NCBI GenBank assembly: GCA_950295325.1
Contig: OX485803.1
Location: forward strand, 54,945,554-55,009,553
Length of the DNA: 64,000 nt
Reading direction: 5' to 3'
Source: Polytrichum commune
Lineage: Eukaryota > Streptophyta > Polytrichopsida > Polytrichales > Polytrichaceae
The notes beneath the pieces are model-generated. The model had not been told where the DNA came from. It saw only the letters and a list, made by a program, of their open reading frames with translations, and made no database searches. Positions 7,558 to 64,000 of this stretch are shown here, in pieces. The stretch's first letter is position 1; every line of letters starts with the position of its first letter. The position numbers and the translations under genes are program-made.

Positions 7558-7653
7558 TTGTTGGGTAAAGGTATCTGTTCCTATGGGTGTGTTTTTGTGA
7601 TGTATGCATATTATTTGTATAGCGTGGGTTTCTGTTCTAGGTTCTGTACGTAG

Positions 7654-11022: not shown

Positions 11023-11164
11023 GTATTGTGTGGTAGAGGATGTATTGGGGGTGTTGGGAGGGTGCCATGCGTGTGGTTATTCATTTGTTGAATGATGGGG
11101 TGGTCTCGCCAGTTCGGGTTATTTTTTGTAATGTATATTATTTTCCGGGTAAGGTGGTATGTGG

Positions 11165-13372: not shown

Positions 13373-13705
13373 TTTGTGTATATTACATAGTATTTTGATT
13401 ATATTTTGTCTTTTTATTGTAGTGTAAGTTTGTTTGTAGGTTTGTTTGTATAGGGGTTTATTGCTTGTATGTTTATTGCTTTTGATGTATTTGGATAGAT
13501 GTATTGATTTGGTTTTTATTTGTATGTTTTTTTTATTTGTTGTTTTGTTTGAATATCGATAGATACTTTTTTTATTTTAGTTTTATTAAAGTGGTGTTTA
13601 TATATTTTGTGTATAATATTTAATAATATTTGTTTTTTTGTTTATTTATTTTTGTATATAAATATATTTTTATAATATGTGTTTCCATAGCTACATATGT
13701 CAAAA

Positions 13706-23214: not shown

Positions 23215-25298
23215 ATGTCCGGAGTTAAGAGCTTCGTGGTTTTCATGTTGGCCATATCTATGTCGATATGGCCGGGTGCCAGTGGCAACCAAAACATCAG
23301 CTGTCGCTGCTTGGATTCGGAAGCTTGCTGGCCAACTGCCGAAAAATGGGATGCATTTAATATGACTATCGGCGGTAGACTAATTGCTCCAAAACCCACA
23401 GGTAAGTACTGCTCTCAGCAGCGATCGAGTCTTGTGTGCTCGCCTCGCTTCAAGTTCACTCAATTAAGTTGTACAATCTGACCACATAATCGACGATTCT
23501 GAACTGTGAACTCTAATGCGAAACCGAAACCGAAACCTGCAAGTTTCGTTTACATTTCTCCTCGTCGTGCATGGTCGAATTGCAAGAATTATCACGTAAT
23601 AATCATCGCAGCTTACAACTTCTGCACTTAGAATAAGATGCACTGTCTTCGCAGAGAGATTTGATGTCAAGTGTCTAGATGACATGATGTTTCTGTGAAC
23701 TAATTCCTGCAGGATACCCTTGCCACAATCCACATTTCGATGCGACAAAGTGCCTTACCATCCAAGAAAACTCTACCAATGCTTACTTGCGAGCAGCCAA
23801 TCCCGGGAGCATGCAAGCAGACAACTGGGAAGACAAAGGCACGCAACGGTGTGCATTCGAGGCGCCCCGGAGTGCACCCTGCCGCCAAGGCCAAGTATCC
23901 ATCCTCGGTGTGCAAGTGGAGAGTGTCCAAGATGTGCAGAAGGCAGTCAAGTTCGCATCGGATCACAACCTCCGGATCGCAGTGAAGAGCAGCGGGCACG
24001 ATTACTTTGGCCGAAGTGCAGCGACAGGCTCCTTCCTCATCTGGATGCACAAGATGAAGAATTACAATCCTAACAACATAAGCATCGATTACACATTCAC
24101 CGCAACTGACAAGAATTGTAAGAAATTTTCCACCCCTGCGGTGACAGTCACAGGAGGGGTACAATGGGGGGAAGTCTATGATGCCCTCAAGCCAACCGGG
24201 TACATCGCTCTAGGAGGCATGGGCCTAACCATCTGCGCAAGCGGCGGGTACTTCCAAGGGGGTGGCCATGGTGTGCTTGGTCCATCCTTCGGCCTGGCTG
24301 TAGACAACATCCTGCAAATCGAAGTTGTCACCGCAGACGGGAAATTCCACATCACAAACGCATGTAAGGAGCCTGACCTATTCTTCGCCCTCCGGGGGGG
24401 CGGGGGGGGCACCTTCGGTATAGTCACTTCTGTCACTTACAAACTACACAGAAACCCTGACAACTTCGCCGGCACCATTCTCACCATCTCTCCACCAAAC
24501 GGAACAATCTGGACTCGGGAGACACAAGAATCTGTGTTGGCCATCTGGGCCAAAGGCATGGTTGCAATGGACGCTGCAAAGTGGGGTGGGTACTGGTACT
24601 TTCAGGATACTGGATTCACAGGGTCCTTTTTGGTGCCTGATACTGTGGAAAGTGCAAACCTTACCATAACCCCAGTAGTGGAAGAGCTTTCGAAGATTGA
24701 GCAGGTGACACCTGCTGTTTTTACATTCAAAGTTGCAACATTCCAGGAGTGGCATGACGATATCTACGCGACTTCGAAGACGAACACGGATGCTACAGGG
24801 GAACGCCAACTTTTGGGGTCACGAATTATCCCTTACTCGGCCCTGGAGGATCCCAGTAGTCTTGCAAGAAGCATTGTTGATGCCATGGTTGAATCTGGTG
24901 TAAAAGTCATGGTTGGCGTCCAAGTGATTGGACCCGGTGTCCGCAAGGCTGACCCACACGGCCTCACGGCTGTCACCCCTGCGTGGCGAACAGGCGTCGT
25001 GCATGTGGTAGCAACCTCGGCATGGTCGTGGAATTCTACGGAAGCTGAGGAGGATTCTGTAAGGCAATCTGTACTCGCCTTCACCAAATTGCTGCAGAGA
25101 TCGTATCCTGATTCCGGTGCTTACTTCAACGAAGCCAGCATCGATGAGCCGGGGTGGAAGCAATCCTTCTGGGGCAAGTCCAACTATGCTAAGTTGCTAG
25201 CCATCAAGATGCGAGTCGATCCGTTAGGTCTCTTTACGTGCCGGAAATGTGTTGGCAGTGAGCTGTGGAGAAACAGTGGCACGTGCCGAGTTCCATGA
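23215..25298 (+). CDS. Secreted FAD-linked oxidase, BBE-like, two exons (23215-23401, 23713-25298)
   Basis: A vanillyl-alcohol-oxidase-superfamily flavoprotein expected to oxidise small molecules such as sugars, alkaloids or phenolics with O2 outside the cell; the substrate is unknown. Splicing at cccacag/gtaagt and ctgcag/gatacc removes a 311-bp intron and gives 590 residues in frame. The start at 23215 is chosen because it is directly followed by a signal peptide (SGVKSFVVFMLAISMSIWPG, cleavage near residue 26); an in-frame ATG at 23197 is possible. Visible motifs: SSGHDYFGRS with the His that binds FAD, GGYFQGGGHG, DLFFALRGGGGGTFGIV, and a C-terminal BBE block (YFNEASIDEPGWKQSFWG, DPLGLFTCRKCVG). 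The second covalent Cys of BBE is not at its usual spacing. Several N-glycosylation sequons support secretion. The N-terminal CRCLDSEACWP..W is typical of fungal members. Confidence 0.9.
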
Positions 25299-36614: not shown

Positions 36615-37916
36615 TCAATACATGTTTTGGCCTTTCAAAGCCCACAAGTGTTCAATGAGGTCTCCTCTCAGACTGTAGTGCAAATCCTCATCTTCTATTT
36701 CCTCTGTGTACTCCTGCAACTGCTCGAAAGTCAGTCTTCTTTCCATGGGCACATTGTCATCAAATGCAGCCCCTAGCACATTCTCAAGACCATGGACACC
36801 ACGTTCATCTTCAAGTATCATATTGTGCAAGATGCAGCAAGCAAACATAATGTCTGAAATTCCTTGCATTCCCCACTGCCGGCACGGATTGCGAATAATC
36901 GCAAACCGAGCTTGAAGAACGCCGAAACACCGCTCCACATCCTTCCGGCAAGCCTCTTGTCTCTGCGAAAAGTGTTTTCTCTTCTCGTCCCCTGGGTTGT
37001 GGATGCTTTGCACAAAGCAACTCCACTGCGGGTAAATACCATCAGCTAACAAGTAGTAACGGTTGTACACCTGCCCGTTTACCTCGAATGTCATGTCACA
37101 TGCGGCGCCAGTCAGCAAGTCATGAATCAATGGGGACCGATCCAATACATTTAGGTCATTGTTCGCACCGGGAAGGCCAAAGTAAATGTGCCAAATGTGC
37201 AAGCTCTGGTCAGCCACTGCTTCCAAAATAATGGATTTTTTTCCTTCACGATCGCCAAAATCACCCTGCCAAGCCACTGGACAGTTCTTCCACTCATAAT
37301 GCATGCAATCGAGCGAGCCAAACATACCGGGAAATCCACGGGCTTCGTTGATGGCGAGTTGTTCACGACAGTCCTCGTACGTGGGTTTCCGCAGGTAATA
37401 ATAACCGAACTCTGCACGCACTGCAGCACAAAATCTCCCCATGCACTCCATGGCAGTGGACTCACTGGTCCGGCAGTAGTCGTCCATAGCATCTGCACAA
37501 ACTCCCAATGCTAGCATCCGTAGTGCAGCGGTTACCTTTTGGTGCGAAGACAATCCCAGCAAGCCAGCCGCATCCCTTTTTTGAACAAAATACACATCCC
37601 GGGTACAAACCTTCTCCAAAATAAAACAAAAAAGCGACCTCCTCATGCGATACCGACGACGAAATATATTTGGGCCATGAGTAGGATGCTCTGCAAAATA
37701 ATCCTTGTGCATCTGCGCATCCATAATCACTCTGTCTCGCTCGATGTTGGCTGCCCTACCTTGGCGCGAACCACCTGCAGCTCCCCGCGACGGGGGTTCA
37801 TAATCAACGAAGTTTTGGAACTGGTCAATGGCCATCTCCATGTTCACGTCGTCTTCTTCGTCGTCCTCCAAAAACCTTTCCCGCGACTCCCTAAACCTAG
37901 ACCGCCAAGCCTCCAT
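36615..37916 (-). CDS. PIF/Harbinger DDE transposase, copy 1
   Basis: A 433-residue protein starting MEAWRSRFRES; this ATG is preferred because upstream in-frame sequence runs into a poly-G tract that varies between copies. DDE catalytic residues: Asp in FGSLDCMHYEWKNCP, Asp in YYLLADGIYPQW and Glu in CRKDVERCFGVLQARF, with the helix-turn-helix-like N-terminal part RRYRMRRSLFCFILEKV ahead of them. It cuts and pastes the element together with ORF1. The protein is identical to copy 2 and has no defects, so it may be active. The conserved C-terminal CCILHNMI block is present. Confidence 0.95.
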   Translation of the reverse strand: MEAWRSRFRESRERFLEDDEEDDVNMEMAIDQFQNFVDYEPPSRGAAGGSRQGRAANIERDRVIMDAQMHKDYFAEHPTHGPNIFRRRYRMRRSLFCFILEKVCTRDVYFVQKRDAAGLLGLSSHQKVTAALRMLALGVCADAMDDYCRTSESTAMECMGRFCAAVRAEFGYYYLRKPTYEDCREQLAINEARGFPGMFGSLDCMHYEWKNCPVAWQGDFGDREGKKSIILEAVADQSLHIWHIYFGLPGANNDLNVLDRSPLIHDLLTGAACDMTFEVNGQVYNRYYLLADGIYPQWSCFVQSIHNPGDEKRKHFSQRQEACRKDVERCFGVLQARFAIIRNPCRQWGMQGISDIMFACCILHNMILEDERGVHGLENVLGAAFDDNVPMERRLTFEQLQEYTEEIEDEDLHYSLRGDLIEHLWALKGQNMY

Positions 37917-38680
37917 CCTCCCAAGGGGAAAAAAACTCAACTTTGAACACAACCACACAAACCCCCCCCCCCCCCAATTCTCAACAAAACCCAGCTCAAA
38001 CCTTTAGAGAACTCCGCAAAAACACCATGAAACCTCCTATATGTCAATACGGCATCGCACCCATATATGTCCCCACTCAAACCTCGCAACAATCACACTA
38101 AAGGTCCCACACAACCACCCAAGCACTCCCTCAACAATTCCTAAAAAATATAAGAACACCGCTTTATGAAATCCTTCAACAACACCCCTAAACCTTCACC
38201 CTAAACACCACATAATATCCCCAAACCTCCCCAAACGCCAAGCCCTACACACCTTCGAGAGAAACCGTGGAATTTAACCCTAAACCATAATCCAAGTTCC
38301 GAAAAATAAAGAAGCAGATCTGCTTGAAAAAACGCCGAGAAAATAATGTGCGCAAACCTTGCTGTGCACTGCCAAGGGAGGGAATAATGGAGAGGGGGAG
38401 GAGAGGCGGGTGGGAAGCAGCTTGGAAGGGGCTGGGAAGTGGTCGGAAAGCGAGGAAGGGGGGAGGAAGGCGCCGCTGTCAGGGACCCCCCCCCATCCAG
38501 CCGCCACGTGTCCCGTTGGAGCGTCTGTGCCCGGGCCCGCTGGAAACCTGCCGCCCGCCTGACACCGGGATGAGCCCGGCCCCCGCCATCCCTGCCCTCC
38601 CCCCGTTGCCGTTGGGGGGAATGGGTGGCGGTGCCCTAAACGAGCGTAGGGCCTCCGGATGCTGGCCTGCCCCGAAGGTC

Positions 38681-41307: not shown

Positions 41308-43002
41308 TTCATTGCTTTACAGTGACATGAATGGGAGCCCGTTCCTCCGTACTATGATCATGTTTGACCAAGCTTTGCCATACGGGTACTTCCTTTCTCT
41401 CGGAAGGTGGGCTCCGGACGACACTCCTATGTGAGCAGTGAGCGGAGAGCGGAGAAGAAGTAAAAATAGTAAACTTCCTAGATTAAATTTAGAAATATTA
41501 AAAAAAAAGCACATAATACTCATAACATTCCGGATTCTTCCAATAATAGTAAAAATTTATGACATATTTCCGTGGAATGTATAGGTCCTAAATTAAATAA
41601 AAAGGCCCTGAATTTGAAATGGTCTCATTAAGTTTGGAAACCGTGAAGTACTAAAATGATAGGAAAATTGTGATGTAATAGATAAGTACATGATCAAAAC
41701 CAAGGATGATCCCAAGAAAGAATAAAGGAAAATGATTTTTTTGAGATTGGTATAATTGAAGAATGAGTCAATCAAAATACAAAGGGCGACCAACTTGCTT
41801 CGTTTTTATTCCATCACTTTTCTATTTGTCCTATGTGTGAGTCAACTCTAGAGCTTGGACTGCAACATATTTGCAACTAAAATAGTTGAAATATGGATGG
41901 TGTAGTTGATTTGAGAATACACAACATATATTGAATTGCTACCAAGATTTAGATGCTCAATCTAACCATGGTGGAGACAAGCTGACAATCTTATATTACT
42001 GAGTGCAAATCTTATATTACTTAGTCAATGTCGGACTCGATTAGAAACATGGATGAATAGGCACTACTTCATCGACCAGATCGATTTTAGAAAGGGACAC
42101 TCCTAGACTAATTCCTAGGTCCAATCCAAAGGGTGAATTAATTCCACTCTCGAGGACTACTTTGACCTCGTTGAAGCTGAAGGTTGGCACGTGGATGAAA
42201 AAGTCTACATCACGATTGCGATGGCAGACCTTTAAAAGGATGAAGTAGACATGCTTGCAATACGAGAACTGACTCCTCCCTCAAAAGTTGGTCATTGTCT
42301 TCGGGGGCATTCACGGTTGGGGTACTACTTTTGGGTGTCTAACGGTTTAAGGACTATTTTAGACAACTTTACATACTTGGTGTGCTTAGATTTGTATTGT
42401 GGAGCATATTTTGGATCATACCTACATTTCATACTCCATATTGAGTACACCGACAAAGTTAATTTACAAGGAATAGGGTCATCTAAGATATCATTTTGAT
42501 TCCTTAAAGGGCATTCATGGGTGCTATCAAAATTGTTCACCTTAGGATCAAGGAATGAAAAGGACAACAAAAATTAATCGAAACGATCCCAATTTTTTTC
42601 CTCACAATCATCGTTCAAGTGTGTACCAATAGAACCAAAAATATATTGCATACCAATTGTATAACTTTACATGTGGCACCAAACATGGCCAACAATACAC
42701 AAAATCATGGCTACATGAAAAATGAACGTTTAGTATTAGAGTTGGACATTAAAAAATAAATATGTACGGATACATGACACTTACACCAAGGTACTAGGAT
42801 GCAAAACAAGAAAAAATTGACCTATGATGTACACTTGAATAGTAAAAATTGCCATTGATGTGGCCCAAACAAGTCATATGACCTCTTTACAAGTTTTATG
42901 ACTTATCTACTCATTTCATAGGAAATTTATCCATTATTGGTGATTATTTAATAAGAAATAGTATCTTTCTTGATAAAGCCTATGAACTACATACTTATTT
43001 AT
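41308..43002. other. Non-coding stretch with small inverted relic of the MULE-like gene
   Basis: No gene recognised. 42309-42333 is a perfect 25-bp inverted copy of 43083-43107, at the end of the MULE-like gene, with weaker similarity continuing for about 50 bp, so a scrap of a related element lies here in the opposite orientation. Confidence 0.55.
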
Positions 43003-46000
43003 TTAAAATTTATTGATCAAATAATAGTAAATCATGATAAACGCCGAGATCCAATGCGACATAGTCCTTAAGTTCTTTGTCTCAAAAGTAGTACCCCAAC
43101 CGTGAATGGACCCCTTCTTGAATGCGGGGCAGGTGCAACCCGGAAGGGAGCTGATGGTGATCTGGTATTGTGTCACGTCGGGTGGCGTCATCAAGTCTAG
43201 CACAATGATGCAGCCATGGCCAGGGTGAGGAATCATCGTGACCGAGCGGAGTCGAGCTTTGAGGGAGTCCGAAGAGCCCATGGATAGCCTCTGCTGAGGG
43301 TTTGGACGGGTTGCGGTGCGCTTGACGATCTTCCCTTCTCTCTTCCCAGGATACATGTCCGCATCCGCGGGCACCGACACGAAGTCTAGATTTGCCGGAG
43401 ACGGGGCTGTGGAAAAGAGCCTTCTGGGCGAGACCGGCACTTTCTGCAGCAGTTGGAATCCGGCTGCTTCGAGGGCCAGGATCTCACATTGCTTGAGGTT
43501 TGTACCAAGTTTCACTGGCCAAACATCCGGAATGCTTGGTCTCTCCTGCTGCGCAGAGTATTGAACGACCCATTTGCGCCTCCTACCCTTGACGCACCTC
43601 TCGATATCATCTGAGCAGAAGAAGAACTCTGTGGACTCTTTCACATTCTTCCTAGTGTTGTGCCATAGACCGGTGTACGTAGGGGCGGGGGTTGATTTTG
43701 CACCCCTTACGATTCTCTCAATACACTTCTTTTTGGTGACAACTCTCTGGGCCCAACAACATTTGGCAAAAGTCTTTGGCAACCGAGCGATGTGCCACTC
43801 CTTCACGTTCACCCTAGTCTCCTCGATGGCAGAGACGTGCCGGATCCGTCCCTCGGGGGTGGGGGACGGGACGACATCGTCGGCATGTGGCACCGGGGGT
43901 GCAACTTCTTGGACATCGGAATCTTCCTCTTCAAGAATTATTGGCATGTGAGTGGAACGAGTCCTGACATCCCTACCAGAGCCACGGGGATGTGAGAAGT
44001 TGACCTTATCAGGCCTGTGCGACTTTTCATCAGCTCCAAGGGGCAAGTCTAGCTTCCGCTTCATCGAGCCAAACACTTCCTCTCCCGCCATGTGAGGGTC
44101 GTGTGTACAGAACTCGTCGGCTCCGGGCATGTCCAGCATGGGGTCCTGGAGGACCTTAGGGTCACCTATTTTTTGGGCCCTACGTTCCGCCATCCGCAGC
44201 CTTAGCTCCTTCTTGCTCGGTCCAGTCCCGCCCACGTCGCCCTTCAAGTACTGGTAGTAATTGACGACCTGTAGGAATGCCCGGATATAGTCATCCACCG
44301 TGGCGATGTAAAGATCACCGCCATTATTGCCGGATGCTTGAAGCCACTTGTTGTGGATAGTCTCCGCAAGGTTGCAAGACGGCATCTCCGCAAGTTCTAC
44401 CTCCGTGAATTTCTGGGCATCGCATGCAAGGTCAAGTTAGCATAAAATTCAGAACTATATCACCCTTCAAAGTCCGGATTGATGTTCACGGTAAAATTTG
44501 AATGAGCGGATGTTCAGCGTAAAATTTGAATGCCTTGTCATAAATCCACCCCATTGGCGATAGCGGAAGTGCCAAAAGGCAAGCCACAACTCCAATTTAC
44601 TCAACGCTCTTTCAGTCACGGCCCCAGCGGATACCCACCAAGCCCTCAGTCCATGGTAAAGACTCTCGGCCTCGGCCAACGTCCGTGCCGTCCTATACTA
44701 GTGGCACATCTTCACGTGTTGTTCCCTCATGTTTTCAACGATGTGTTTGTCCGTGTATTTTAACATGGACTGGGTCCAGTGAAATTGACAAGTCCTCTCT
44801 CGATCGTCCATGCAATCCTCCTTGCCGTTCCCGTATACGACCCGGACGGCATTCTAGTTTGCATGCGCACTGTCCGCCATGAATCCTTTGAAGTAAGGCC
44901 TCTCAATGCCATGTCTCTCCATCATTGCGTTGAGGTTTTTCCATAACACCATCTGCGCATCAATATCCTCGGATTGCATGTCGCAACATGCGATGGTCAT
45001 CACACGGCAATAAGTCGAGTCGTAAACATGACAAACCATGGTGGTCCACTGCCTCACCCGTTTGACGTGGTCGAACATTATCCAAGCATTCTCGAGGTCC
45101 CCCTTGGGCTGCATTCGCTTCACCAAGTCCACCCCACTTCCAGGCCCCACCTCTGACATCTTGAACACAAAGACCTTGTCAAGCTCTGCACCTTGACCGG
45201 GAAACATATTCTTTTGCACAAAAACCCAGTTGTTGAGACCCCGCAACTTGGTAATGCTATCCATCACGCCATACCTCCTCAAGTATCTAAAGGTGACGAC
45301 CTTGTTCCGGATATTGGGCGACGCCATGTCCTTGCATCGGTCAAGCACCGGAATGAGTTCCTCAAAAGTAAGCGTCTTCGGCGGATCGTCCTCGGACCTC
45401 AACAAATAGTTGCCAACAAGCATCTTACTTGCTTCCAACACAACTGCACTCTTCGTGGCCTGTGGAGTCTTCTCGATCTGATCTTTGATGAGGCTACTAA
45501 TTTTGACCTTCGTATCTCTATAGTCGCCAACTTTAACAAGATGCTCATGGGTTCCAAGGTGGATGCAAACACGGGTGCTGTTACGCTTGCCCGAGACATA
45601 ATAGATCTTAGCTCTACAAGTGGCAAGACAAGCGGGAGGTTCCTTACATACCTTGCAAACCAGAGTCGAATCTTTGGGAGGACCCTGGCCAACAACAAAT
45701 GCATGCAAGGTACATCCGTCAAACTTTGTCTCGTTCACTTCGAAGATGCGATGCTCACGGGTCAGGTAGGCGCACTCCTTATTCTCACACTGCAGGTGAC
45801 CGACACAACTTGAGAACCGGAAAGAGAGACCCATATCATTAGTGATGTTGGTCGTGATGGTTTTGGTCCAGACATGACCATCGTATCGTTTATCCATGCC
45901 CGGCATAGATTTTGCATGCGTCCGTGAGGCTGAAGTACCGGCAAGAGGCAACTCAAACATGACATCACCATTAAATATTGCAGGCAAGTACTCAACTCTC

Positions 46001-46689
46001 TCATGTCTAATAGAACTGTAGTCAAGCTTCTTTAGGAGATTATTTTTCCCTGGCCTAGTAGCCAGCTTCTTCAAACAGTCTACGATACTGACGCACACAT
46101 ATGAAGAAGGCGGTTGCAATGGAGGACACTTATCTGAAACAACTACAGGAGACTTCGACCGAACATAATGGTTGGGTGGACTAGGAACTAAAGGCGTGGA
46201 TATGCGAGGACTGTCGTCGTTGTCTGATGAAAGGGTGATGACTGAATTAAAAGTGTCCGGTTCGACCTTAACTTTTGCAAGAAGAGGAGTCTCTGGTCCT
46301 GGCTCTACCTTGACCTTTACATCAATAGGAAAAAGGGTATGCATAGTGCACGTAGATGAACGTCTAGGGGTAAGAATTTCTGTAGATGCTGCCATCTGGG
46401 AATCTGTCAATCCATAGACCCTATACCTGCCGGGATCAAGTCTCCACATCTTGTAGTCATTCTCATCATGAATTGATAGCTGGCCAATTGTGTGAGTTAG
46501 TTCAGACGTGAGGTCATCGAAAACCTCCTCCTCAATACTAATAGTGTCTTCTAGAAAAGTGAATCTAAGACTCAAACGCTGACTAGACACTAAAGCATGT
46601 CCGTTCTCATCCACGCGAAAGGTAAGAGGAAGGCCCATGCCATGGGCGCGGAGCACAGCCAACGCAACGGTTGAGACTGAATCCGCCAT
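43003..46689 (-). pseudogene. MULE-like transposase with SWIM-type zinc finger, decayed
   Basis: The frame from ATG 46689 runs in one phase to 43003 but for stops. Parts: an N-terminal region without known domain; a WRKY/GCM1-like Cys/His zinc module (CVGHLQCENKECAYLTREHR, later CKVCKEPPACLATC, VCIHLGTHEHLV); a DDE core with VCHVYDSTYCRVMTIACCDM and GFMADSAHAN; and a C-terminal CTCPAF that starts a SWIM CxC motif. In-frame TAG codons occur at 44854-44856, where Trp is expected after SAHAN, and near 44694. A 29-bp tandem duplication near 44480-44535 and a possible small intron shift the frame before MPSCNLAETIHNKW. The SWIM end is lost. I know similar open frames from bryophytes and lycophytes but cannot name the subfamily. 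Confidence 0.7.
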
Positions 46690-46746
46690 GGCGAGTAGAG
46701 ACTGAGACCAACTCAACTGGAATGATGTTGCTATGTAGAAAGGCAA

Positions 46747-48099
46747 TAAAGAGAGGCGCGTGCCAATGCATTTATTGAATTGGTAATGGCCTACTCTAGA
46801 GTATCACCAGCTGATGAGAATGGAGTTCGATAATTTAGAGGCTTGTAGGATAATTGGTTGCTTGCTAAAATTATTATAGCAGCTCTAAAATTCATGGGCA
46901 AGGGTGATCGAAGGTATGTCAGCACATAAGTAGCCGTGTGGAATGTGTGGCAACCGAATTTAGGCACAGCTGACGTCATTTATTGGATCAATTAAATATC
47001 TATCCAATTTAGAATCAGAGGTTTAGGTGTAAAATCGATTTCCCTCGGCCGCAATTTGAAGGATGAAAATAACAATTATGCGATATTCTAAGTAAATCAT
47101 TAAAGGGGTCCATTAAATTGGAATGTAATGGAGATTTAAACAAGATGCAAAACATCATAAAAGTCCTCTCATATTGCAGAAAGATGAGCTGAGTTTGTAA
47201 ATGAGGTAGTATCTCAGATGCGTGCCGTGTATCCATTAGACGGTGACACCTTCGATCGCAAAGCGAAGGAGAAGGAGAGAGCCCCTATTCTCTAGTTCAA
47301 AATAGATTAGACGTGCTAAGATGAGAAATGCAGAGACTAATAGAATGCGGTTTGCAAACTTGGATGATACCGCCAAGTCATTAACGAGCCAGTTTGCCAA
47401 GCTTCCAGTCGAGATTGTACAAAATCAAGTTGTTGAACAAGAATATACTTTACCTTCCCACTCAAAGTGTGAGACCGAGCTCCAACTATCGGTGGACTTC
47501 AATATTGTCAAAGAGAGTCAACTATTTGATTGCCCCCTCATTAATTAATGTTGCTTTTGATATTCTAAATTTCCATTTGGTGCAAGGTTAGGAACAATCT
47601 CGAATGGGACGTTCACGGATGAGGACTAAGGCTTAAAATTTATATGCGTTGCTCGACTGGACTGCGGGGGTGACGAAAAATAATTAGGGTTACAATTTTG
47701 GAAATGGTTGGATAAGAGCAAAGGGGTGCCACAAAAGGCGAGGGAGTTGGCAGCCAAAAAAGGGATAGTGAGTGCGGACTTCGTGGGTCCGAGAATTTGA
47801 ATTGTAGACAATGATTTAGATTCTGGGGAGATCCGTGAGGGGGAGATTAGAGTTGAGGGCGGAACCTTGAGTCCGACTTGCACTGCTGTTGAGTTGCTAT
47901 TAGTTATGTCAAGCGCTAGATTATGTTAGGTTGGAGCCATATGTATTGCTAGCCAAACCAATCAACTAAAACCCATCAATTGCGGTCCCAGGAAGTTGGT
48001 AGAGAAATGAGCAACTCACCACGAGAACAACCAAGCAGTACAAACCGAGCCAGGGTATGTTGTCTGAACCCGAGGTGTGGGATTTTGTTTTTATTTTTT
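46747..48099. other. Non-coding stretch, no gene recognised
   Basis: Short frames at 47321-47548 and 47394-47591 overlap in different phases and show no domain. The segment separates the MULE-like gene from the palindrome repeats. Confidence 0.45.
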
Positions 48100-48985
48100 T
48101 TAAAGTTTTTGCGAAGTGAGGCCACCGAGTCTGAGTCCAGTTCAGGGTTCGTAAATGGTGTTGGATGGTGGTGGTCGGGTCCGACCACCACCTCTGGATC
48201 CTTAGCTAGAAGCCCCCAGCAGCTTCAGACCTTCATAACTTTCACGTGTGATCTCTGATGCGCACATATGACCACTCTATTGTCATCTATGTTTCACGTA
48301 GATGCGGATGTATACCTCACATGCACCGTTCATGCAAGTATTGAGGAAATTATGCTTGTTCACATCTCCGCAGTCTCGAGAGAGGTACGCGACATACCAC
48401 CACCTCTAGATCCTCATTTTTTTGAAGTTTTTGCGAATTCAGGGTTTGTAAGGGGTTCTAGATGGTGGTGGTCGGGTCTGACCACCACCTCTAGATCCTC
48501 ATTTTTTTTGAAGTCGTTGCGAAGTGAGGCCACCGAGTCTGAGTCCAGTTTAGGGTTCGTAAAGGATGGTGGTGGTCGAGTCCGACCACCACCTCTGGAT
48601 CCTCATTTTTTTTGAAGTTTTTGCGAAGTGAGGCCACCGAGTCTAAGTCCAGTTCAAGGTTCGTAAAGGGTGCTGGATGGTGGTAGTCGGGTCCGACCAC
48701 CACCTCTGGATCCTCAGCTAGAAGCCCTAGCAGCTTTAGACCTTCATAACTTCCACATGTGATATCTGATGCTTACATATGACCACTATATTGTCATCTA
48801 CATTTCACGTTGATACGGATGGACACCTCACTTGGACCATTTAGGCAAGTATTGAGGAAATTATGTTTGTGCAAACCTGCGCAGTCCCGGGAGATATGCG
48901 CGACGGACCACCACCTCTGAATCCTCATTTTTTTTGAAGTTTTTACGAAGTGAGGCCACCGAGTCTGAGTCCAGTTCAAGGTTCC
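48100..48985. repeat. Repeat cluster with near-perfect ggtggtggtcgg palindromes
   Basis: A module of gcgaagtgaggccaccgag, then ccagttcagggttcgtaaa, then a palindrome ggtggtggtcgg-gt-ccgaccaccacc, recurs complete or in part at about 48112-48193, 48440-48489, 48515-48592, 48625-48703 and 48945-48985. A longer unit (48187-48420 and 48706-48935), including ttcataacttycac and a ttcacgt block, is duplicated about 520 bp apart. The cluster lies just upstream of the ParB-methyltransferase gene in its sense direction. Confidence 0.85.
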
Positions 48986-49108
48986 TAATGGCTGTTGGAT
49001 GGGTTAGTTTAGAATTTGAGTTGCATTTGTTTTATTTCTATTTTGAGGGGTGATGTTTGTTTGTTACCTAGACTGAGGCCATTTAGAGTTGTTTTTGTGT
49101 AAATTTGT

Positions 49109-49993
49109 ATGATGTCGATTGTGAGTGAAGTTGTGGAGGTTGCAACTGGAGGGTCATCAACAAGCTTATCGGGGAGTCCTTGCAGAGGAACCATGGACTT
49201 GGAAGTTACCCACGGGTCGCCTAATGTAGGCATTGCTCCAAGGAAGGGAAAGGGAAGGGTGCGGCGCATTCCTCAGTCTGAGTCCAGTGAGAGTGGAGAT
49301 CGCGACGACGGTGATGAGTCGCAGCCTTCGCTTGTGATGGACTCAGTAGGGGATCATAGTCACCATCCTCCTGCTAGTTCTAGTAAAGGCCAGAGTAGTG
49401 GTGATAGAGGCCATTTTGAGTCACCTATGGAGCGTGCTCGAAGGCAAGTTAAGGGCCTGACGAAGGTTGGAAACAATGTACAAGCCACATTGCTTCATGG
49501 CAATATGTATGAGGTAATTGAAAGTATGAGGCGGCAACCCGTCTCAAAAGCAGTCATTTGAATTCCATTGTGTAGGATGATTCAGATGCCCATGGTTAGA
49601 CCTACACTTCGATGTGATGTTGTTAAGTTGATGGGAGCGTTTCGCTATGGGTACAAGCTCCATTCAGGTGCTATTTATGTGTTCGTGACGGATGTCGAGG
49701 GTCATAGCAGGGTTGTCATTCAAGAGGATGTACAGCAATGGAGCCTTTGTTGAATTCAAGAAAATGATGCATTCAAAAATTGCTTGAAATCCGATCCTGA
49801 CCTCATGGGCTTGAGTGGCTCAATGTTCTTTGTTTATGATGGTAACCATAGTGTCTTAGCTTGAAAGGAGGTGATTGAAATTCTTCATGTTGAAGTTCAA
49901 CATTGGGTTTCGAAGAATGGTAATTCCAAATGCGTTGTATTTGACAGCGTTGGAGGTCGTGGAGATATCCTCACTGCCATGCACGATATCAAT
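49109..49993 (+). pseudogene. Exon 1 with ParB/Srx-like domain (part of the fusion gene)
   Basis: One frame runs from 49109 to the exon end, interrupted only by TGA at 49559, 49751 and about 49871. The last falls directly after SVLA and before KEVIE, where ParB-like domains often have Trp. A conserved-looking stretch, DVVKLMGAFRYGYKLHSGAI, precedes the ParB box. The exon end ATCAAT/ATATAA lacks a GT; G to A in GTATAA would restore one. Confidence 0.65.
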
Positions 49994-51220
49994 ATATAAT
50001 TTCTTGTTGATCTCATATTGCTTTTGATCCTCTTATTTGGCCTTCACAATTTATGCAATCTGACATGCCAACTGTGTAGGTCCAATCAAACGGCACATGT
50101 GAAGACTAGTTTAGTTCATACTCTTCACCGTATTCGGAAATACGGATCGTATGACATTGAGTATTTCAAGCCCATGCTTACTCCGGAGCAGATCAAATCA
50201 TGCCTCACGAAGTCAAAGAAGACGTGGTACCCACTTACTAGAGATTTGATGGTCAACTTCATCTTCAGTGTAAGGATCTCATTTCCTTATGGTTTCTTCC
50301 TTATCCGCAATCACTTGATTTGAGAGTTTAGTTTTGATTATTTGCTTCATTCTTCATGATGACGTAGTCCAAGTGGCTAGCGAGGCTGGGCAGTTATATT
50401 TGGAAAAGGTGGATGAAAGCGCGCATAGCGATTCAGACCTCCAGGAATATGTTGACAAGGCTATTGCTAAGAAGAAAGAGGAGCTATTTACCTACTTCAA
50501 CAAAGCCCAATCAGTTGCTAATCCAGCCGTAGGGGAGGGCTTCATGGAAGAGGTGAGTGAATTTTACTTGGATTTTGATTTCGACTCAAGACCTTAGCTC
50601 TGTTTCTGCTGATGCATTATTTCCTTGGACATGTAGGTTATTGTGTATTACAGTGCACACGTTGCTGCCAAAGTTGAGATGTCACTGGAGAAACTGCAGA
50701 TGGTGGCAACTGCAGTACGAAGTGCGCTGGCTCAAGTGGTGGAACAGTTCAGAAATTGTTCGAAAGGACCTCATGTTTCCAAAGTACCCTGCTCGTGAGG
50801 ACACGCTGAAGAAATGGATGGACCATGCTGCTCTTTGGACAGGGATAGAGGAGAGTGCCACTCAAGAGCTTTTTTGTTACATAGCACTAGTGGGTGGGGT
50901 TGATAAGTCCAAGGATGTAAAGAGTTTTGAGGACTATATTGACACTTGGCGGATTTGCCTTTGGACCAAGGCATTTAACTCCCTCTTATCTAGTTCTGAT
51001 GTACACAATAAATCCCTTGTGTTTGATAAAGTCAAGGATGGGGATCTTCTTGTGAAGCGGCTTTGCCTCAGGTATGAGTTAGTTATTTATTCATTTCATT
51101 ACATTTTTTTTTTCAATGCCGATGGCTGCTTGCGGTTTTGCTTTAGTGTGATGCTATGTGTGCCTTGCTCATTCATGTTTTTTACCAATCTCATCTAGTG
51201 TATTTTGTTGAATTTTGAAG

Positions 51221-52743
51221 GTATATGAAGCACGTGCTCCTTAAAGCTGGGGCAATTCGGAAGCTACCTCGTTGTGTGCAGGGGTGGTGCGATTCTTCTT
51301 CGCCAACCTTCATCTTCTCAAAGGCACAAAAGAAGAACTTCAGTAGAGAGCATCTCATTGAATGTTGTTGGTACATCGAATGTCCTAAGGGCTTTGTGCC
51401 TGACTCGGAGTCTAAGATCAAAAAATCCTTTAATTGTCACATAGGATCTCCCTAATGATGATGATGCACAAGAAGTTGAAGAGATTGCTCCTCTTGAAGT
51501 TTCACCTACCTTAGATGGAGAGAAGTCTTCTGGTAAGAAGAAGCTTGTTGCGGAGACTTCAACAACTGGAGTGTCCAAGAAGAGTAGAGCGATTGTTGCT
51601 TCAGTGGTTGCCACTAGATCTGCCACAGTTGAAGACACTCTGATGGGCAAAGCTGATAGTGAGCCCCTTTTACTCACTTAGAGCCATGTGAAGGTACCAA
51701 CTCCTCCCTCTCTGTCTCAACATCTTTCTTCTGAAAGCAGACCGCAAGTCCTTGTCATTAACGACTCCATTCTTAAGCAGCAACGGTTCTTTCGTGAGGT
51801 GTGCAAGTTTGTTGTATTATGCTCTCCTTTTCGCTCATGGAGAATCCATGGCGTGCCTTCATTGCGTGGAGCAGCTGACTTGGTGACTGCAGACTTACCA
51901 TAAGGTTTGCCGGTTCCAACTGTTTCGGTGCCATCATCAGTAGTACCCACTTGGAATGAGAAGAGTGAAGACTACTTGTAGGAGCTGTTTGATTTTGTAG
52001 ATGAGATTGTACACGATAATGGTGCATTGTTATTTTTTTCCATTTGATAATGGAGAGTTTCTCGAGGACATTGAGAGGTTTTATATATGATTTTTTTGGC
52101 TTTGTTGTGTGCAAGGAGTGGATGGGGGTCAATCTCTTGCCCATTAGCTCGGCAAGGATTCCCAATACCACCACGAACAGATTCAATATCCTTCTTCTCA
52201 AGCGGGTTTCGCGGCCCGAGGACTCCGTGTCTTGTCACTTCTACATTTTCCATTCGCTATGTACCAGAGTTGGTGGCGCAGGGTGTGGACGTTGGCCTCA
52301 ACGACACATTGATTAATTTCTACACCAATCCACTCATGGATGGTGCTTAACCGTGGAGAGGCCCAAGAAAGAAGGATGAATATTTTTTTTCATGCCTCAT
52401 TATGGCTCTAACCACAGTCGGGGACTTGGTTATTGATGTTGCAGCTGCCACTAGTATGAATTTCACTTCATTGATGTCCTTGATCTGAATTCAAACTAAT
52501 CACTTTGTGAATATGGTACTTATTACAAATTGTTGATTTCTTTGTAGGCAATTCTATTCGTGCTTGCAAGAGTACTGGCAGGCACGTACTGGGCCTGGAG
52601 AGTGACAAGAAGTTGTTTGGGGTTGTTCTTCAGCCTATGATGTCTATTGCTCCACCACCTCCACCTCCTCAAGCTCCTGTGCTAGTTGCAAAGGAGCCAA
52701 AGAAGGTTGCTGCAGTGAAGCGGCGTCGTGTTGAGGACTTTGA
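51221..52743 (+). pseudogene. Methyltransferase core exons (part of the fusion gene)
   Basis: Readable blocks are VPTWNEKSEDYL, ELFDFVDEIVHDNGALLFF, PFDNGEFLEDIERF, FGFVVCKEWMGVNLLPISSA, ELVAQGVDVGLNDTLINFYT, PWRGPRKKDEYFFSCLIMAL and the motif I block across the last intron. The block RGPRKKDEYF..LI..LT..GDLVID corresponds to the KP..L...I...T..GD.VLD signature of beta-class DNA methylases. Stops at 51901 (TAA), 51979 (TAG) and about 52349 (TAA, before PWRG) and frame slips near 51440, 52045-52095 and 52240 break it. Confidence 0.65.
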
Positions 52744-53384
52744 GTAAGTAAGTACCGCTTACTCTTTCTATTTCATTGGTCAATATTCATAGTTTTTTTA
52801 GAACCATGATATCACTTGTGCCTAAACTCTTTAAAATGTTGCAATATTGTAGAGACTATCCTAGTCCAACTAAGAGTTGGAGACTCCCTTCGTATGCAGA
52901 AGAAATTGCTAAGCTGCAAGCACTACAAGCATCTCCATCTCTCCAGTCAAATGTCTCTCCGAAGTATAACCTTCGTGTTTTGAAATTCTTAGATGTTGCT
53001 GCAGATGTTGATTTTGAGATTGGCTTGACTGACACTCAAACCAGCCCTAGTGATTTTGTTGGTGGTTCTATTTCTCTATCCACCAGCTTTGTTGGTAACG
53101 GTTTGATTTATGTAGATGATGAGGCTATTAGTAAATAGACCTCAGTTTTGTTTTTCTCAACTAGTTTATCATATCTCCAATCTGGAGAGCCATTGTAATG
53201 GCTACTTTTATGTTTTCAAACTGTGTGAATATCTCATTTTTACCACTGAATTACAATTGTAATCAATCTTTGCCTATGGTACATCCATATCCTAAACCCT
53301 CGCATGAAACATGCATGAGTTATGTGTTTTTGAGAGAAATTAGAAAAATTTAGTATGGCTGTAAAAATGAAAATAAGCAACAAA

Positions 53385-54010
53385 GAATTGAAGAGTAGAA
53401 GTCTTTGAGAAATCATGAGAAGAGAGAAAAATGAAAATTAAGATAGATAGGGCATTGATGTTATCCAAAGAGTTAATCATTAGAAGAGATCATTGACAAA
53501 TAAACAACCCAAAAATGAGTTTTTTCAGAAGGAAAAAAAATAGAAAAAAAATCAAGAATGTAAATTTTTTTTAAACAATGGACAATGGATAAAATTAAAA
53601 AAAAATTAGAAATGGCAAATGGAAAAAAAATGATAGGATAAAAAAATTGAAGGTAACAAGTCTTTGAGACTAAAAAATGAGGAAAATAAAAATTAAAGAT
53701 GATAGGGCATAAATGTTAACAAAATTGTTAATGAATAGAAGGGATGATTTACAATTGAACAACCAAAAGAATTAGGATTATATAAGGGATAAAAAAAATG
53801 TCAATAAAAAAAATTGAACATAGAAGATCATAAGTCTTTGATAAGTCTTTAATGTAAATAAAAAAATATTTAAGATTGACTGGGCATGGATGTTAACCAT
53901 TTAGTGAATAAATAAAAGAGATTAGTGACAAATGAACAATCACAGAAATTTCGATTCTTAAAAGGAAAATGGATAAAAGATATTGAGATAGATAAGTGAA
54001 GGCCGATATG
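53385..54010. repeat. AT-rich tandem repeat, three diverged units
   Basis: Three units share aagtctttga.., a gat-agggcat-gatgttaac block and ..gacaaat-aacaaccmaaa, starting near 53385, 53645 and 53812, about 170-260 bp apart. They are non-coding. A short ccctaaaccctaaacc stretch follows at about 54073-54089; it is two telomere-type units only. Confidence 0.6.
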
Positions 54011-54235
54011 CGGCTCTTGAACTTTGACATCATCATGACGTCAACCCTAATTGATGCATAGAAATTGTGATGAACCCTAAACCCTAAACCAAAGCGGTGG
54101 AAACATGTACAGAGATTATATTTTTAGATTGAAAATCCACAGTTATACATATCAAAAGTTTAAACTAGTAATAAAGTTGTCAAAAAATTCCACGGTTATA
54201 GGAGTTAATTCATCTTAAAATGGCATTCCAAATGT

Positions 54236-57200
54236 CTATTTCTGCTCTTCAACCTCTACTTTATGCTCTCCGCTCTCCGCTCTTTGCTCGCATACGACCT
54301 TTCCCCGTGGGGTGTATATTGGTTCTTGTTTGGGGGGGGGAGGATTGTGCGTTGTGGTTGGGTCATGTGAGAATAGTAGTTGGGCTTGTGCCAAGGTATT
54401 TTTGATGAGTTTTGGGGCAACTTCAAATTTTTGTTTGAATTCTTTAGGGGATATGATTTGGAGAGTGTTAGGGTTTTGGATTTGATTAAAGGTGGTGATG
54501 TTATATGTGTGTAATTTATCGAGGTATTTCTTTGTGGCTTGTTTATGCTTTGGGGAGAAGTGGGCGTATCTTGCGGTTTGTATCCATGCAAGTTCTATTC
54601 CTGAATGTTTTATGGAGAAATGTTTTATGGTGGTGTGTATATGGATTTCATATTCCCTTTTAAGCAGGTATAATGTGCAGGTTGTGGGTGATATTGCACA
54701 TGCTTGATATTTTAGGTGTGGGAGGTGATAGAACCCTCCATATTTTGCTGTAATGTATTTGGTCAGACCTTGGTAGATTTGGCCTAATTGGCCTTGGTTG
54801 TTGAGGGCGTTTATTAGTTGACCAATACAATTGATGTAGACATGGGAGGAGAGAGGTGGTGTTAATGCCAAAATTCTATTGGGGAGGTGGGTTAGTATGT
54901 TCGCTATACTTTGGGGTAGTTTGCATATTTGTTTGGTTAATTTACTGAGGATTTTGTCAAGTTTTTTGATGTTTGGTTTAGAGAATGGGATTGCATAATA
55001 GGTGTAGGCTATTCCTGGTTTTATTACTGTGTTGAGGATCTGTATTTTTTGCTTGATTGTAGCTAGGGATGTCATTAATAATTTGCTATGTTTTTTTTGG
55101 ATGTTCCATTTTAGGGAGGGGACTAGATGGATGCCAAGGTATGTGTAGGGTTTATTTTGTGTGAGGGTAGGGAAAGGTTGATTTTTGAAGTAAAATATGT
55201 TGTGCTTGTATGTATGCTTTAAAGATGGTGGTTTTCAAGTTTGATTTGTTTGGACATCCTGTAATTGCCCACTTGGAGAGGTTGAGGTTTAGGTGTGCCC
55301 ATTCTAAGAATTTTTGGAGTTTGCGGATTTGTGGCTAAATGTATGCTATGTTATCGGTGAGGATGGTAAGGTCATCAGCGTATGCCATGATGTTACATGT
55401 GGTTGTTGATGTCTTGAAGTGGTATCCTATGTTATTTTTTTCCAGCCATAGGAGGAGTAGGTCTAAGAAAAGGATAAAGAGGCATGGGGAGGTCACTTGC
55501 AAAAATCGTAGAAACAATGTGCGATACAAAATAAGGTCTAATATATTCATCGTAGGTAAATTTTGCAAAAAATGTACATATAATGATGTAATATAGGGGT
55601 TTTTTTAATAATGAAACATGTTTACATGTAAAATACCATCACATATAATGGCCTCTTTATCTAGTCAGTACATGTAGAATAACGTGGAAACAATTACTAG
55701 GGGTAGTGGGTCTAGGGTAGGGTTTGTGCTAGTGGATGAAAAAAAGCAATTTTCTGTTGAAATTGTTGGGATAGATGACTTCGCATGTTGGCTTGCTTGA
55801 AGGTTACTGAACCAACGGTTCCAATGTGGAGTTAATGGTCTTTATCCACATGTTGGGAGGGAAAATTTCGGCGCTTTGTTTGACTATATTTCACAATCTA
55901 AGACAATGCTTCAATTGCATGCCTTTGCCTTAAGTTGATTGTTTTGATTTAGTTCATGTGAGTTTAGCATTGTGGTTGAACTTCACAATTCATGGTTGTA
56001 AGAAGAGAAAATGTCCTTCATGAAAAAAATTGTCGCTTATAGAACCAAAAAAAAATGGGGTGTACGAAATAAAGTATGGTTCAAGAAAAAAATGGACAAC
56101 AATTGGGCTCTGGAAAAAAAATTGGTTACTTGGAATATAAGAAAAAAATGCAGTATTTTAAAATATTTTTTTGCAAGGTAAATAGGCCCCTGATAAATAG
56201 GTCATGAGCACGTGTATGCATCAATTAAAGAGGTAGGGGCTTAAGGTGTCACCTTGGATGGAGTCTCTATTAATTTGGACAAGTAGGGTTGTTCCAAAGT
56301 TGTTGCTATGAAAGGAGGTAGTTGAGTTTGTGTATATGTTACCTATGAGTTCGACGGCGTCTCGGGGATATCCTAAATCCTCCATTAGTGCGAGGAGTCT
56401 TGCATAGTCTATGGATCCAAAGGCATTTCTAAAGTCTACGTAGGTAAGGTAAATATCATTGTTGGTTAAGCGAGCATCTTTTAATGCAGCTGCTATTATC
56501 ATTTGGATTTGTTGGGTTGTGTTTCTTTATGGTCTAAAATCTTCATGGCTAAAATATATTATTTTGTGTTTTTTGCAACAAGTTGTGAGGTGGGCAGTGA
56601 GTGTGTTGGTGTAGAATTTATAAATAATGTTGGCCAGAGCGATAGGTCTATAGTTGGTAAGTAATAGCGGCTCGCCTTTTTTGTGGATATTGTTTTACTG
56701 TGTTTCCAATATTGGGATATGTTCATCTGGTGATAGCCTTGCCGAAAAAAGAGAAATAACAAATCATGGAAGGTTGGATGGAGGGCTTTGAGGATTTCGT
56801 TTGGGATGTTGTTAGGGCCTGGGGTTTTTCCCCTAGCTAGTTTCTTGAGGCTATTGTTAAACACTTCTCGAGAGAAGTTTTCCGAAATTTTGGAGTTGTG
56901 GGGGCCTCTTTTCTCAATAATGAATCCGTCTTGGTCACGCCATGGGTATTTGCGGACTACACATTGGCATGCAATGGGGTGATCCGTGGGGTCATCACAT
57001 AGGGTGTTTTTTCTATTAAAGAAGCTTTGTTGTGTTTGTAGGATTTCTTGTTTTATATCTATTGGGTTTGTGAGTATGTTGCCATTAGTGGCTTTAAGGC
57101 AATCTAATGGTGTGTTTATGGATGGTTTGAATATTTGTTTATATGTGTTTTTGGTTTAGTGTTTAGTAGGAGCATGTATTTTGTGATGGTTTTTTTGCAA

Positions 57201-61875: not shown

Positions 61876-64000
61876 AGGGCACCGCCACCCATTCCCCCCA
61901 ACGGCAACGGGGGGAGGGCAGGGATGGCGGGGGCCGGGCTCATCCCGGTGTCAGGCGGGCGGCAGGTTTCCAGCGGGCCCGGGCACAGACGCTCCAACGG
62001 GACACGTGGCGGCTGGATGGGGGGGGGTCCCTGACAGCGGCGCCTTCCTCCCCCCTTCCTCGCTTTCCGACCACTTCCCAGCCCCTTCCAAGCTGCTTCC
62101 CACCCGCCTCTCCTCCCCCTCTCCATTATTCCCTCCCTTGGCAGTGCACAGCAAGGTTTGCGCACATTATTTTCTCGGCGTTTTTTCAAGCAGATCTGCT
62201 TCTTTATTTTTCGGAACTTGGATTATGGTTTAGGGTTAAATTCCACGGTTTCTCTCGAAGGTGTGTAGGGCTTGGCGTTTGGGGAGGTTTGGGGATATTA
62301 TGTGGTGTTTAGGGTGAAGGTTTAGGGGTGTTGTTGAAGGATTTCATAAAGCGGTGTTCTTATATTTTTTAGGAATTGTTGAGGGAGTGCTTGGGTGGTT
62401 GTGTGGGACCTTTAGTGTGATTGTTGCGAGGTTTGAGTGGGGACATATATGGGTGCGATGCCGTATTGACATATAGGAGGTTTCATGGTGTTTTTGCGGA
62501 GTTCTCTAAAGGTTTGAGCTGGGTTTTGTTGAGAATTGGGGGGGGGGGGGGGGTTTGTGTGGTTGTGTTCAAAGTTGAGTTTTTTTCCCCTTGGGAGGAT
62601 GGAGGCTTGGCGGTCTAGGTTTAGGGAGTCGCGGGAAAGGTTTTTGGAGGACGACGAAGAAGACGACGTGAACATGGAGATGGCCATTGACCAGTTCCAA
62701 AACTTCGTTGATTATGAACCCCCGTCGCGGGGAGCTGCAGGTGGTTCGCGCCAAGGTAGGGCAGCCAACATCGAGCGAGACAGAGTGATTATGGATGCGC
62801 AGATGCACAAGGATTATTTTGCAGAGCATCCTACTCATGGCCCAAATATATTTCGTCGTCGGTATCGCATGAGGAGGTCGCTTTTTTGTTTTATTTTGGA
62901 GAAGGTTTGTACCCGGGATGTGTATTTTGTTCAAAAAAGGGATGCGGCTGGCTTGCTGGGATTGTCTTCGCACCAAAAGGTAACCGCTGCACTACGGATG
63001 CTAGCATTGGGAGTTTGTGCAGATGCTATGGACGACTACTGCCGGACCAGTGAGTCCACTGCCATGGAGTGCATGGGGAGATTTTGTGCTGCAGTGCGTG
63101 CAGAGTTCGGTTATTATTACCTGCGGAAACCCACGTACGAGGACTGTCGTGAACAACTCGCCATCAACGAAGCCCGTGGATTTCCCGGTATGTTTGGCTC
63201 GCTCGATTGCATGCATTATGAGTGGAAGAACTGTCCAGTGGCTTGGCAGGGTGATTTTGGCGATCGTGAAGGAAAAAAATCCATTATTTTGGAAGCAGTG
63301 GCTGACCAGAGCTTGCACATTTGGCACATTTACTTTGGCCTTCCCGGTGCGAACAATGACCTAAATGTATTGGATCGGTCCCCATTGATTCATGACTTGC
63401 TGACTGGCGCCGCATGTGACATGACATTCGAGGTAAACGGGCAGGTGTACAACCGTTACTACTTGTTAGCTGATGGTATTTACCCGCAGTGGAGTTGCTT
63501 TGTGCAAAGCATCCACAACCCAGGGGACGAGAAGAGAAAACACTTTTCGCAGAGACAAGAGGCTTGCCGGAAGGATGTGGAGCGGTGTTTCGGCGTTCTT
63601 CAAGCTCGGTTTGCGATTATTCGCAATCCGTGCCGGCAGTGGGGAATGCAAGGAATTTCAGACATTATGTTTGCTTGCTGCATCTTGCACAATATGATAC
63701 TTGAAGATGAACGTGGTGTCCATGGTCTTGAGAATGTGCTAGGGGCTGCATTTGATGACAATGTGCCCATGGAAAGAAGACTGACTTTCGAGCAGTTGCA
63801 GGAGTACACAGAGGAAATAGAAGATGAGGATTTGCACTACAGTCTGAGAGGAGACCTCATTGAACACTTGTGGGCTTTGAAAGGCCAAAACATGTATTGA
63901 GAAGATCGAGAGTGAACGCAATAATCCTTCAGAACTTGTGTTTATTTTGGTAGAATATTACATGTTGCTTGTTAGGTAAACGTTTGTTGACTTGTACATG
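61876..64000 (+). mobile_element. PIF/Harbinger transposon, copy 2 (runs off the window)
   Basis: From gggcaccgccaccc at 61876 to the window end, the sequence is the reverse complement of 38636 down to about 36514 with almost no differences; the poly-G tract is 16 here and 14 in copy 1. The flanking triplet is TGA. The ORF1 half would lie beyond 64000. High identity implies recent transposition or gene conversion. Confidence 0.9.
62599..63900 (+). CDS. PIF/Harbinger DDE transposase, copy 2
   Basis: 433 residues, identical over the whole protein to copy 1 at 37916-36615, with the same DDE residues (FGSLDCMH, LLADGIYP, DVERCFG). The start MEAWRSRF is used, as in copy 1; an ATG at 62536 gives 21 extra codons through the variable poly-G tract and is unlikely. 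The gene lies downstream of a GC-rich 600-bp end region that may hold its promoter. Confidence 0.95.
   Translation: MEAWRSRFRESRERFLEDDEEDDVNMEMAIDQFQNFVDYEPPSRGAAGGSRQGRAANIERDRVIMDAQMHKDYFAEHPTHGPNIFRRRYRMRRSLFCFILEKVCTRDVYFVQKRDAAGLLGLSSHQKVTAALRMLALGVCADAMDDYCRTSESTAMECMGRFCAAVRAEFGYYYLRKPTYEDCREQLAINEARGFPGMFGSLDCMHYEWKNCPVAWQGDFGDREGKKSIILEAVADQSLHIWHIYFGLPGANNDLNVLDRSPLIHDLLTGAACDMTFEVNGQVYNRYYLLADGIYPQWSCFVQSIHNPGDEKRKHFSQRQEACRKDVERCFGVLQARFAIIRNPCRQWGMQGISDIMFACCILHNMILEDERGVHGLENVLGAAFDDNVPMERRLTFEQLQEYTEEIEDEDLHYSLRGDLIEHLWALKGQNMY

Follow-up and report, generated by a model that had tools for sequence, protein, structure and literature searches.

The available text of PMC12477816 describes a 1104-aa protein with ParB-like and N4/N6 methyltransferase parts encoded opposite the transposase of Sola1-1_Ec32 in Ectocarpus, with citations to further ParB-methylase transposons from green and red algae; the algal proteins had been noticed without a known target or mechanism. 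In VANDAL elements, the VANC protein binds repeats and removes methylation, as described in the accessible parts of PMC5735166 and PMC10398659. Here we analyze a 64,000-nucleotide stretch of the Polytrichum commune genome (contig OX485803.1, positions 54,945,554 to 55,009,553; hereafter, the window), in which a gene joining a ParB-like region to an N6/N4-type methyltransferase core (the ParB-MTase gene) runs on the + strand from an ATG at 49109 to a stop codon at 53136-53138. The gene belongs, as accessory cargo, to a ~12.9-kb DNA transposon, one of a large Mutator-like superfamily abundant in this genome, and in most families of the superfamily the gene is preceded by repeated palindromes. 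An earlier note on the window, made from the sequence alone, had described a eukaryotic ParB-like and amino-methylase fusion with introns and standard borders; its frames, splice borders and end coordinates stand, and the donor and acceptor of the last intron, near 52743 and 52853, match in phase by eye. That note's coordinates stop short of the adjacent transposase, the palindrome array and the inverted ends.

The gene is assigned to a transposon because of its inverted ends, its transposase and a gene order shared with target-duplicated copies. In the window, inverted ends bracket the transposase and ParB-MTase genes, which are divergent on opposite strands with the repeat array in the center. 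Elements A (C1:~63.98 Mb; C numbers are contigs) and B (C3:~17.5 Mb), of a related family, are ~11.7-11.9 kb long and 96-99% identical in long blocks; their alignments end at matching inverted ends flanked by 9-bp target duplications, CTGCCTACA and GTCTACGGA, and both genes recur in element A with the divergent order unchanged. Target duplications were sought in A, B and the window copy, and in the last, an old copy, none was recognizable; an empty-site test of this copy using the flanking long interspersed nuclear element (LINE) found no LINE continuation in the left flank. The possibility of a mobile element, raised in the earlier note, is borne out by the inverted ends, the divergent transposase and the duplications of A and B.

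The designation Mutator-like follows from the 9-bp duplications of A and B; none of 142 genome matches to the MULE (Mutator-like element) transposase domain PF10551 (best 150 of 271 candidates scored) fell on the window transposase, and the element is not classed as a MULE. VANDAL elements are likewise Mutator-type. Two open reading frames of the window transposase found no match in Pfam, and the 742-aa transposase frame of A found a chance match only. The KDZ transposase domain PF18758 also gave no match, but neither did the controls of that search; target duplications of KDZ elements are 8 bp. Siblings of the window transposase at 89-94% identity are present elsewhere in the genome, and its C terminus carries CxCx(n)CxH, which we take to be a SWIM-like motif.

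Copy numbers and gene pairings from the six-frame genome searches are lower bounds, since only top-scoring candidates were evaluated. There were at least 84 matches to the methylase exon (best 76 of 1419 candidates scored), at least 150 to each of two ParB exons (best 150 of 843 and 150 of 1116) and at least 68 to the transposase (best 68 of 2082). The two ParB-exon searches together list at least 300 distinct places, in keeping with the multi-copy family that the earlier note expected, and among the matches listed in the second, 112/150 ParB exons lack an internal stop. A divergent ParB exon is listed within 20 kb upstream of 41/68 listed transposases (another arrangement for 2, none listed for 25), where chance would give about 2/68; for the 24 listed transposases closest to that of the window, the proportion is 23/24. 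The relatives comprise at least 11 families by our own grouping, which separates ParB exons below about 65% identity and places L029 through its methylase exons (50-58% to L007). Four places in the genome match SAM_LFY (LEAFY) above the cut-off, which would indicate a land-plant lineage.

The window copy itself is dead because of in-frame stops in the ParB exon and in methylase motif IV, as the earlier note had concluded. Three in-frame TGA codons fall in the ParB exon alone, and other stops are present, one of them in motif IV. The ParB-like box at ~49.8 kb reads MFFVYDGNHSVLA-stop, and the methylase parts read ADLVTADLP-stop-G at 51.9 kb and VGDLVIDVAAAT plus NSIRACKSTGRHVLGLESDKK at 52.4-52.6 kb.

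Palindromes upstream of the ParB-MTase gene share a central CG-N4-CG, with arms that differ by family. The window-family palindrome, GGTGGTGGTCGGGTCCGACCACCACC, is present 4 times in the window and 14, 20 and 12 times in siblings L017, L018 and L019. Upstream of the gene in A and L027 the palindrome is AAACCCTGTGCGTTAACGCACAGGGTTT; L010 carries GACCCTCTCGGAACCGAGAGGGTC, and its GATC form is found in L024 of the same family (90% ParB identity). L026 has a 36-bp palindrome centered on CCGTTAACGG, with 27 CG-N4-CG copies, and other palindromes are CCCACGGATCCGTGGG in L028, ACTGTCGGATCCGACAG in L020 (14), GTGCCGGCAACGGCAC in L009 (4) and TTGTGCGCTGGCGCACAA in L005. The central four bases partly track the ParB tree, with GGTC, GATC or GAAC in the clades of the window plus L020 and of L028 plus L010, and TTAA in A, L026 and L029.

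A looser palindrome criterion puts two or more CG-N4-CG palindromes per region upstream of the gene in 8/11 families, where the upstream DNA of L022 and L007 is masked and L023 alone represents their family. Block-shuffled controls of the same regions contained 0-0.8 such palindromes (5 shuffles per region with two-base blocks permuted, which only approximates dinucleotide shuffling). By a strict criterion (arms of at least 10), there are 4-21 palindromes where an array is present versus 0-0.6 in shuffles; L020 then has single palindromes only and L009 none, and their repeated CG-N4-CG palindromes need the looser criterion. No CG-N4-CG palindrome was found in the 51 kb of the window outside the element or within the element's two genes; elsewhere, two unrepeated ones were found in 18 kb flanking A and none in 2.5 kb downstream in L005. 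Exclusivity was examined for the window family. Its palindrome has an exact 20-bp core with 49 occurrences in the 408-Mb genome, one of them in the window (reversed-pattern control, 0), and every occurrence is found no more than 6.6 kb upstream of one of 7 window-family ParB exons.

It is the ParB-MTase gene, not the transposase, that the array accompanies: a copy at C6:34.73 Mb has both array and gene, and the 8 kb read past its array shows no transposase, and transposase copies at C6:41986456 and C2:5084257 (92-94% identity) have no exact palindrome nearby. A separate repeat with palindromes TGGACTTCCATSGATGGAAGTCCA, GGGCGCTGTCCCGGGACAGCGCCC and GCCATGAGCTAYGCRTAGCTCATGGC is common to L006, L009, L010, L019 and L020, which belong to different families, and a similar piece lies near window position 48280; this repeat is not part of the family-specific arrays.

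The methylase assignment, for which ten separate pieces of the window gene gave no match to ParB or N6_N4_Mtase in Pfam, was secured through the paralogs: spliced cores of 7/7 families match PF01555 (N6_N4_Mtase), a profile that the earlier note had named as a check, at E≤0.1, the best at 1.1e-6, and a profile of the family cores matches DpnA (5.5e-10) and CcrM (2.1e-8) in the PDB. Few copies pass singly, and a six-frame genome search with PF01555 returned five matches, of which the small contigs C10 and C12 account for three. The family cores share a conserved motif I and a conserved WRGxxxK motif.

The catalytic motif IV of such methylases has the consensus (D/N/S)PP(Y/F/W). Here, the aromatic position is Asp or Glu as the family state in 10/10 families read, the core of L009 not having been found: DLPEG in the window sibling L017 and in L025, DLPEN in L020, QFPDG in A and L027, EYPDG in L007, L022 and L029, DYPDG in L026, DVSEN in L024, DVPDN in L028 and DIPDG in the L005 family. 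L005 itself reads DIPYG, which was rejected as the state of its family, since the Tyr is private to L005 and the nine other close copies (L006, L030-L037) all have Asp. Among five more decayed relatives, L038 has DIPDG, L042 has EILDG, L040 and L041 have Asn, and L039 reads IPYG in a shifted frame. Substitution patterns indicate that the protein, methylase core included, evolves under purifying selection: within families, the ratio of nonsynonymous to synonymous rates (dN/dS) is 0.34-0.80, and in eight between-family comparisons the nonsynonymous proportion pN is 0.23-0.39 vs a synonymous proportion pS of 0.74-0.91, a contrast weakened by saturation of pS, with dN/dS computable for 1/8 pairs. 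Canonical base methylation by the protein appears doubtful, because the motif IV aromatic is Asp or Glu under purifying selection, and loss of the catalytic aromatic would favor a non-canonical or non-catalytic role, the candidate actions being to protect, to recruit or to mark. The earlier proposal that the element writes its own DNA methylation is accordingly left unsupported.

The N-terminal part appears ParB-like at the level of motifs only. Its conserved boxes run in the order IPLCRxxxLPxVRPxLxxDVxxL ... GY ... DGNHRxxAW, which, with the DGNHR, we take to fit the ParB/sulfiredoxin box consensus. AlphaFold single-sequence models were unusably poor (pLDDT, the predicted local distance difference test score, 38.6 and 33.7).

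We give an even chance to the reading that the ParB-MTase protein is an accessory protein that acts, with sequence specificity, on the element encoding it, VANDAL/VANC-like in design and built from unrelated protein parts. The protein would bind the palindromes of its own family, much as ParB recognizes parS and VANC recognizes VANDAL repeats, and this binding would confine its action to its own element family. Since the base-stacking aromatic is gone and the S-adenosylmethionine (SAM)-binding part is kept, the protein may, one step further, block or counteract host silencing of the divergent promoters more probably than methylate DNA canonically. More tentatively, and in our view with the balance against it, plant transposons may here have evolved, independently and for a second time, a sequence-specific system for anti-silencing (or self-marking), in which a bacterial-type ParB box and an amino-methylase pseudoenzyme with acidic residues fixed in its catalytic motif read a parS-like CG-N4-CG code with family-diverged arms.

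Several points weigh against this reading. Homology to ParB has no statistical support: 0/9 members match ParB PF02195 in Pfam, a check that the earlier note had proposed and that the ParB part fails, a profile of the ParB-MTase family found no ParB match in the PDB, and hhalign against P1 ParB gave 0.05% probability. No separate DNA-binding domain was identified in the protein, and the transposase has cysteine-rich regions and could be the palindrome binder. L023 and L025 are without an array (L025 has one CG-N4-CG palindrome of another sequence plus a different palindrome), and L029 has a single CG-N4-CG palindrome. The CG-N4-CG core was spotted after inspection of the palindromes, so that its test is post hoc. 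All 18-bp palindromes counted by the looser rule are barely above shuffles in some regions (4 vs 2.6 in the window), and because this excess is small, the signal is placed in the repeated CG-N4-CG type and the strict count. The exact palindrome is missing at one of the eight listed window-family ParB exons, that at C4:58387299, which shows 82% identity and carries stops. Finally, family A has a second palindrome type, TTTGGGTCG, which also occurs outside the element and was left out of the counts.

Palindromes of the TTTGGGTCG...CGACCCAAA type were observed repeated both within family A and beyond the element, at L012 in the right flank of element A.

That the protein is an active DNA methyltransferase marking its own element with N4-methylcytosine or N6-methyladenine at or near the palindromes is unlikely in our judgment: the PF01555 core and SAM motif are conserved and each palindrome holds two CG sites, whereas the aromatic of motif IV has given way to Asp or Glu in every family read and the sole canonical Tyr in a good copy is the private one of L005. 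For the algal protein, the available text of PMC12477816 does propose binding and epigenetic modification of its own transposon. The palindromes might instead belong to the transposase, the ParB-MTase protein having another job, and this we hold to be somewhat unlikely. Transposases commonly bind iterated sites, and one palindrome type of element A also lies between two transposase reading frames; against this, the arrays lie upstream of the ParB-MTase gene and not at the element ends, two close transposase copies are without the exact palindrome, and array and gene survive together at C6:34.73 Mb with no transposase in the 8 kb read, which plain deletion would also explain.

Introns and a plant-like context would suit a domesticated host gene of which the window copy is a stray pseudogene, the alternative raised in the earlier note; this is very improbable and was rejected at the window locus, given the number of ParB-exon places, the linkage to the transposase and the target duplications of A and B. 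Bacterial or phage contamination, exceedingly improbable, would account for the bacterial-type domains, and the assembly does include a 47-kb contig that has intact methylase frames and, where read, a GC of 0.61-0.64. Contamination was rejected on chromosomal context: the window copy and the studied relatives have introns and come from contigs 42-78 Mb long (C1-C7), and no phage or viral relative was confirmed, the methylase exon finding five phage records only at E 3-8, the ParB exon seven records at E 0.7 or worse, and none of 33 pattern matches in viral contigs being confirmed.

Table 1. Features of the ParB-MTase transposon, in window coordinates
Feature	Position	Strand	Basis or remark
Whole transposon, ~12.9 kb	41415..54306 (ends approximate, ± ~5 bp)		Inverted ends and gene order as in target-duplicated family A/B
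Left terminal inverted repeat arm	41425..41455	+	87% complementary to 54267-54297
Right terminal inverted repeat arm	54267..54297	-	Pairs with left arm 41425-41455
Transposase gene, degraded (2 nonsense codons and nested insertion)	42140..46803	-	43.6% identity over 746 columns to element A transposase
Probable nested insertion of ~0.8 kb splitting the transposase	42303..43113		31-bp inverted ends, 94% complementary; transposase similarity picks up again on either side
Four copies of the 26-bp palindrome GGTGGTGGTCGGGTCCGACCACCACC and variants	48167-48192, 48464-48489, 48568-48593, 48679-48704		Partly within repeats of ~104 bp
ParB-like/N6-N4-methylase-like accessory gene, dead	49109..53138	+	About 7 exons
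ParB/sulfiredoxin-like region, IPLCRMxxxPxVRP ... DGNHRxxAW	49502..49993	+	Alignment; motif level only; 3 TGA inside
Methylase motif IV position, D-L-P-stop	51892..51903	+	Alignment; sibling L017 has DLPEG
SAM-binding motif I region, intron-split	52417..52615	+	Sequence and comparison with relatives
Subterminal CCACGGTTATAGGA	54190..54203	+	Elements A and B also have it close to their right ends

Around the element, the window holds near-identical transposase frames in opposite orientation at 36615-38003 (-) and 62533-63900 (+), the first matching Plant_tran/DDE_Tnp_4; an open 536-aa frame at 23688-25298 (+) with FAD_binding_4 and BBE domains, of the berberine-bridge type of oxidase; and LINE-like frames at 5878-13576 and 54236-57155 (-), the first with an RNase H domain and the second adjoining the transposon at its right end. 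At L005:2100-3261, upstream of the ParB-MTase gene of the L005 family, are frames that look protein-kinase-like by eye (GSYGVVWK, HCDLSFTN, DWG) and are possibly another accessory gene; two of these pieces found no match in Pfam at E 0.01. The 47-kb contig, C10 (L001, L003), with its high-GC stretches and open N6_N4 methylase frames, resembles bacterial contamination of the assembly.

The genome supplies at least 11 families, and since every family has a gene of its own and most also have a palindrome of their own, straightforward exchanges could test target specificity. If the protein does bind and protect its own palindromes, it would represent a second kind of plant sequence-specific anti-silencing machinery, and the families would offer a natural set of DNA-targeted modules.

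Bacterial ParB and parS combine a DGNHR-type box with iterated palindromic sites near the gene, and the moss system is alike in both respects; it differs in lacking a significant profile match to ParB and in residing in a eukaryotic transposon. The beta-class N6-adenine methyltransferases DpnA and CcrM are matched by profile along the SAM-binding half and some of the remainder, whereas their DPPY motif IV is replaced here by [D/E/Q]x[P/S][D/E]. Marchantia DN4MT1a/b are also plant-lineage DNA N4-methylcytosine methyltransferases but, as the available text of PMC8566409 describes them, are host sperm-specific genes and not transposon cargo; they are set apart here by that description. The earlier note knew of no plant gene of this architecture, and our literature search, with thin coverage of subscription journals, found no plant report; outside plants the architecture is published, in the brown-algal Sola1 element (PMC12477816). 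Going by the accessible text, ParB-methylase transposon proteins have already been reported in brown, green and red algae. Sola1-1_Ec32, compared by description, is likewise a giant DNA transposon whose two-domain protein is encoded on the opposite strand from its transposase; it is a Sola1 element, whereas here we find 9-bp duplications, another transposase, a land-plant lineage and many families, and the part of its description available to us mentions neither iterated palindromes nor a change in motif IV. Similar in design is Arabidopsis VANDAL/VANC, in which, by the portions available of PMC5735166 and PMC10398659, a transposon-encoded accessory protein is paired with family-specific noncoding motif repeats that differ between related families, a pattern found here in 8/11 families. 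According to the same sources, VANC is built from DUF1985/DUF287 with no methylase core, and VANC21 recognizes the short motif YAGTATTAY, compared with the long palindrome here; binding and demethylation are proven for VANC, and the ParB-MTase protein of the moss elements would be expected to bind its palindromes in a comparable way.

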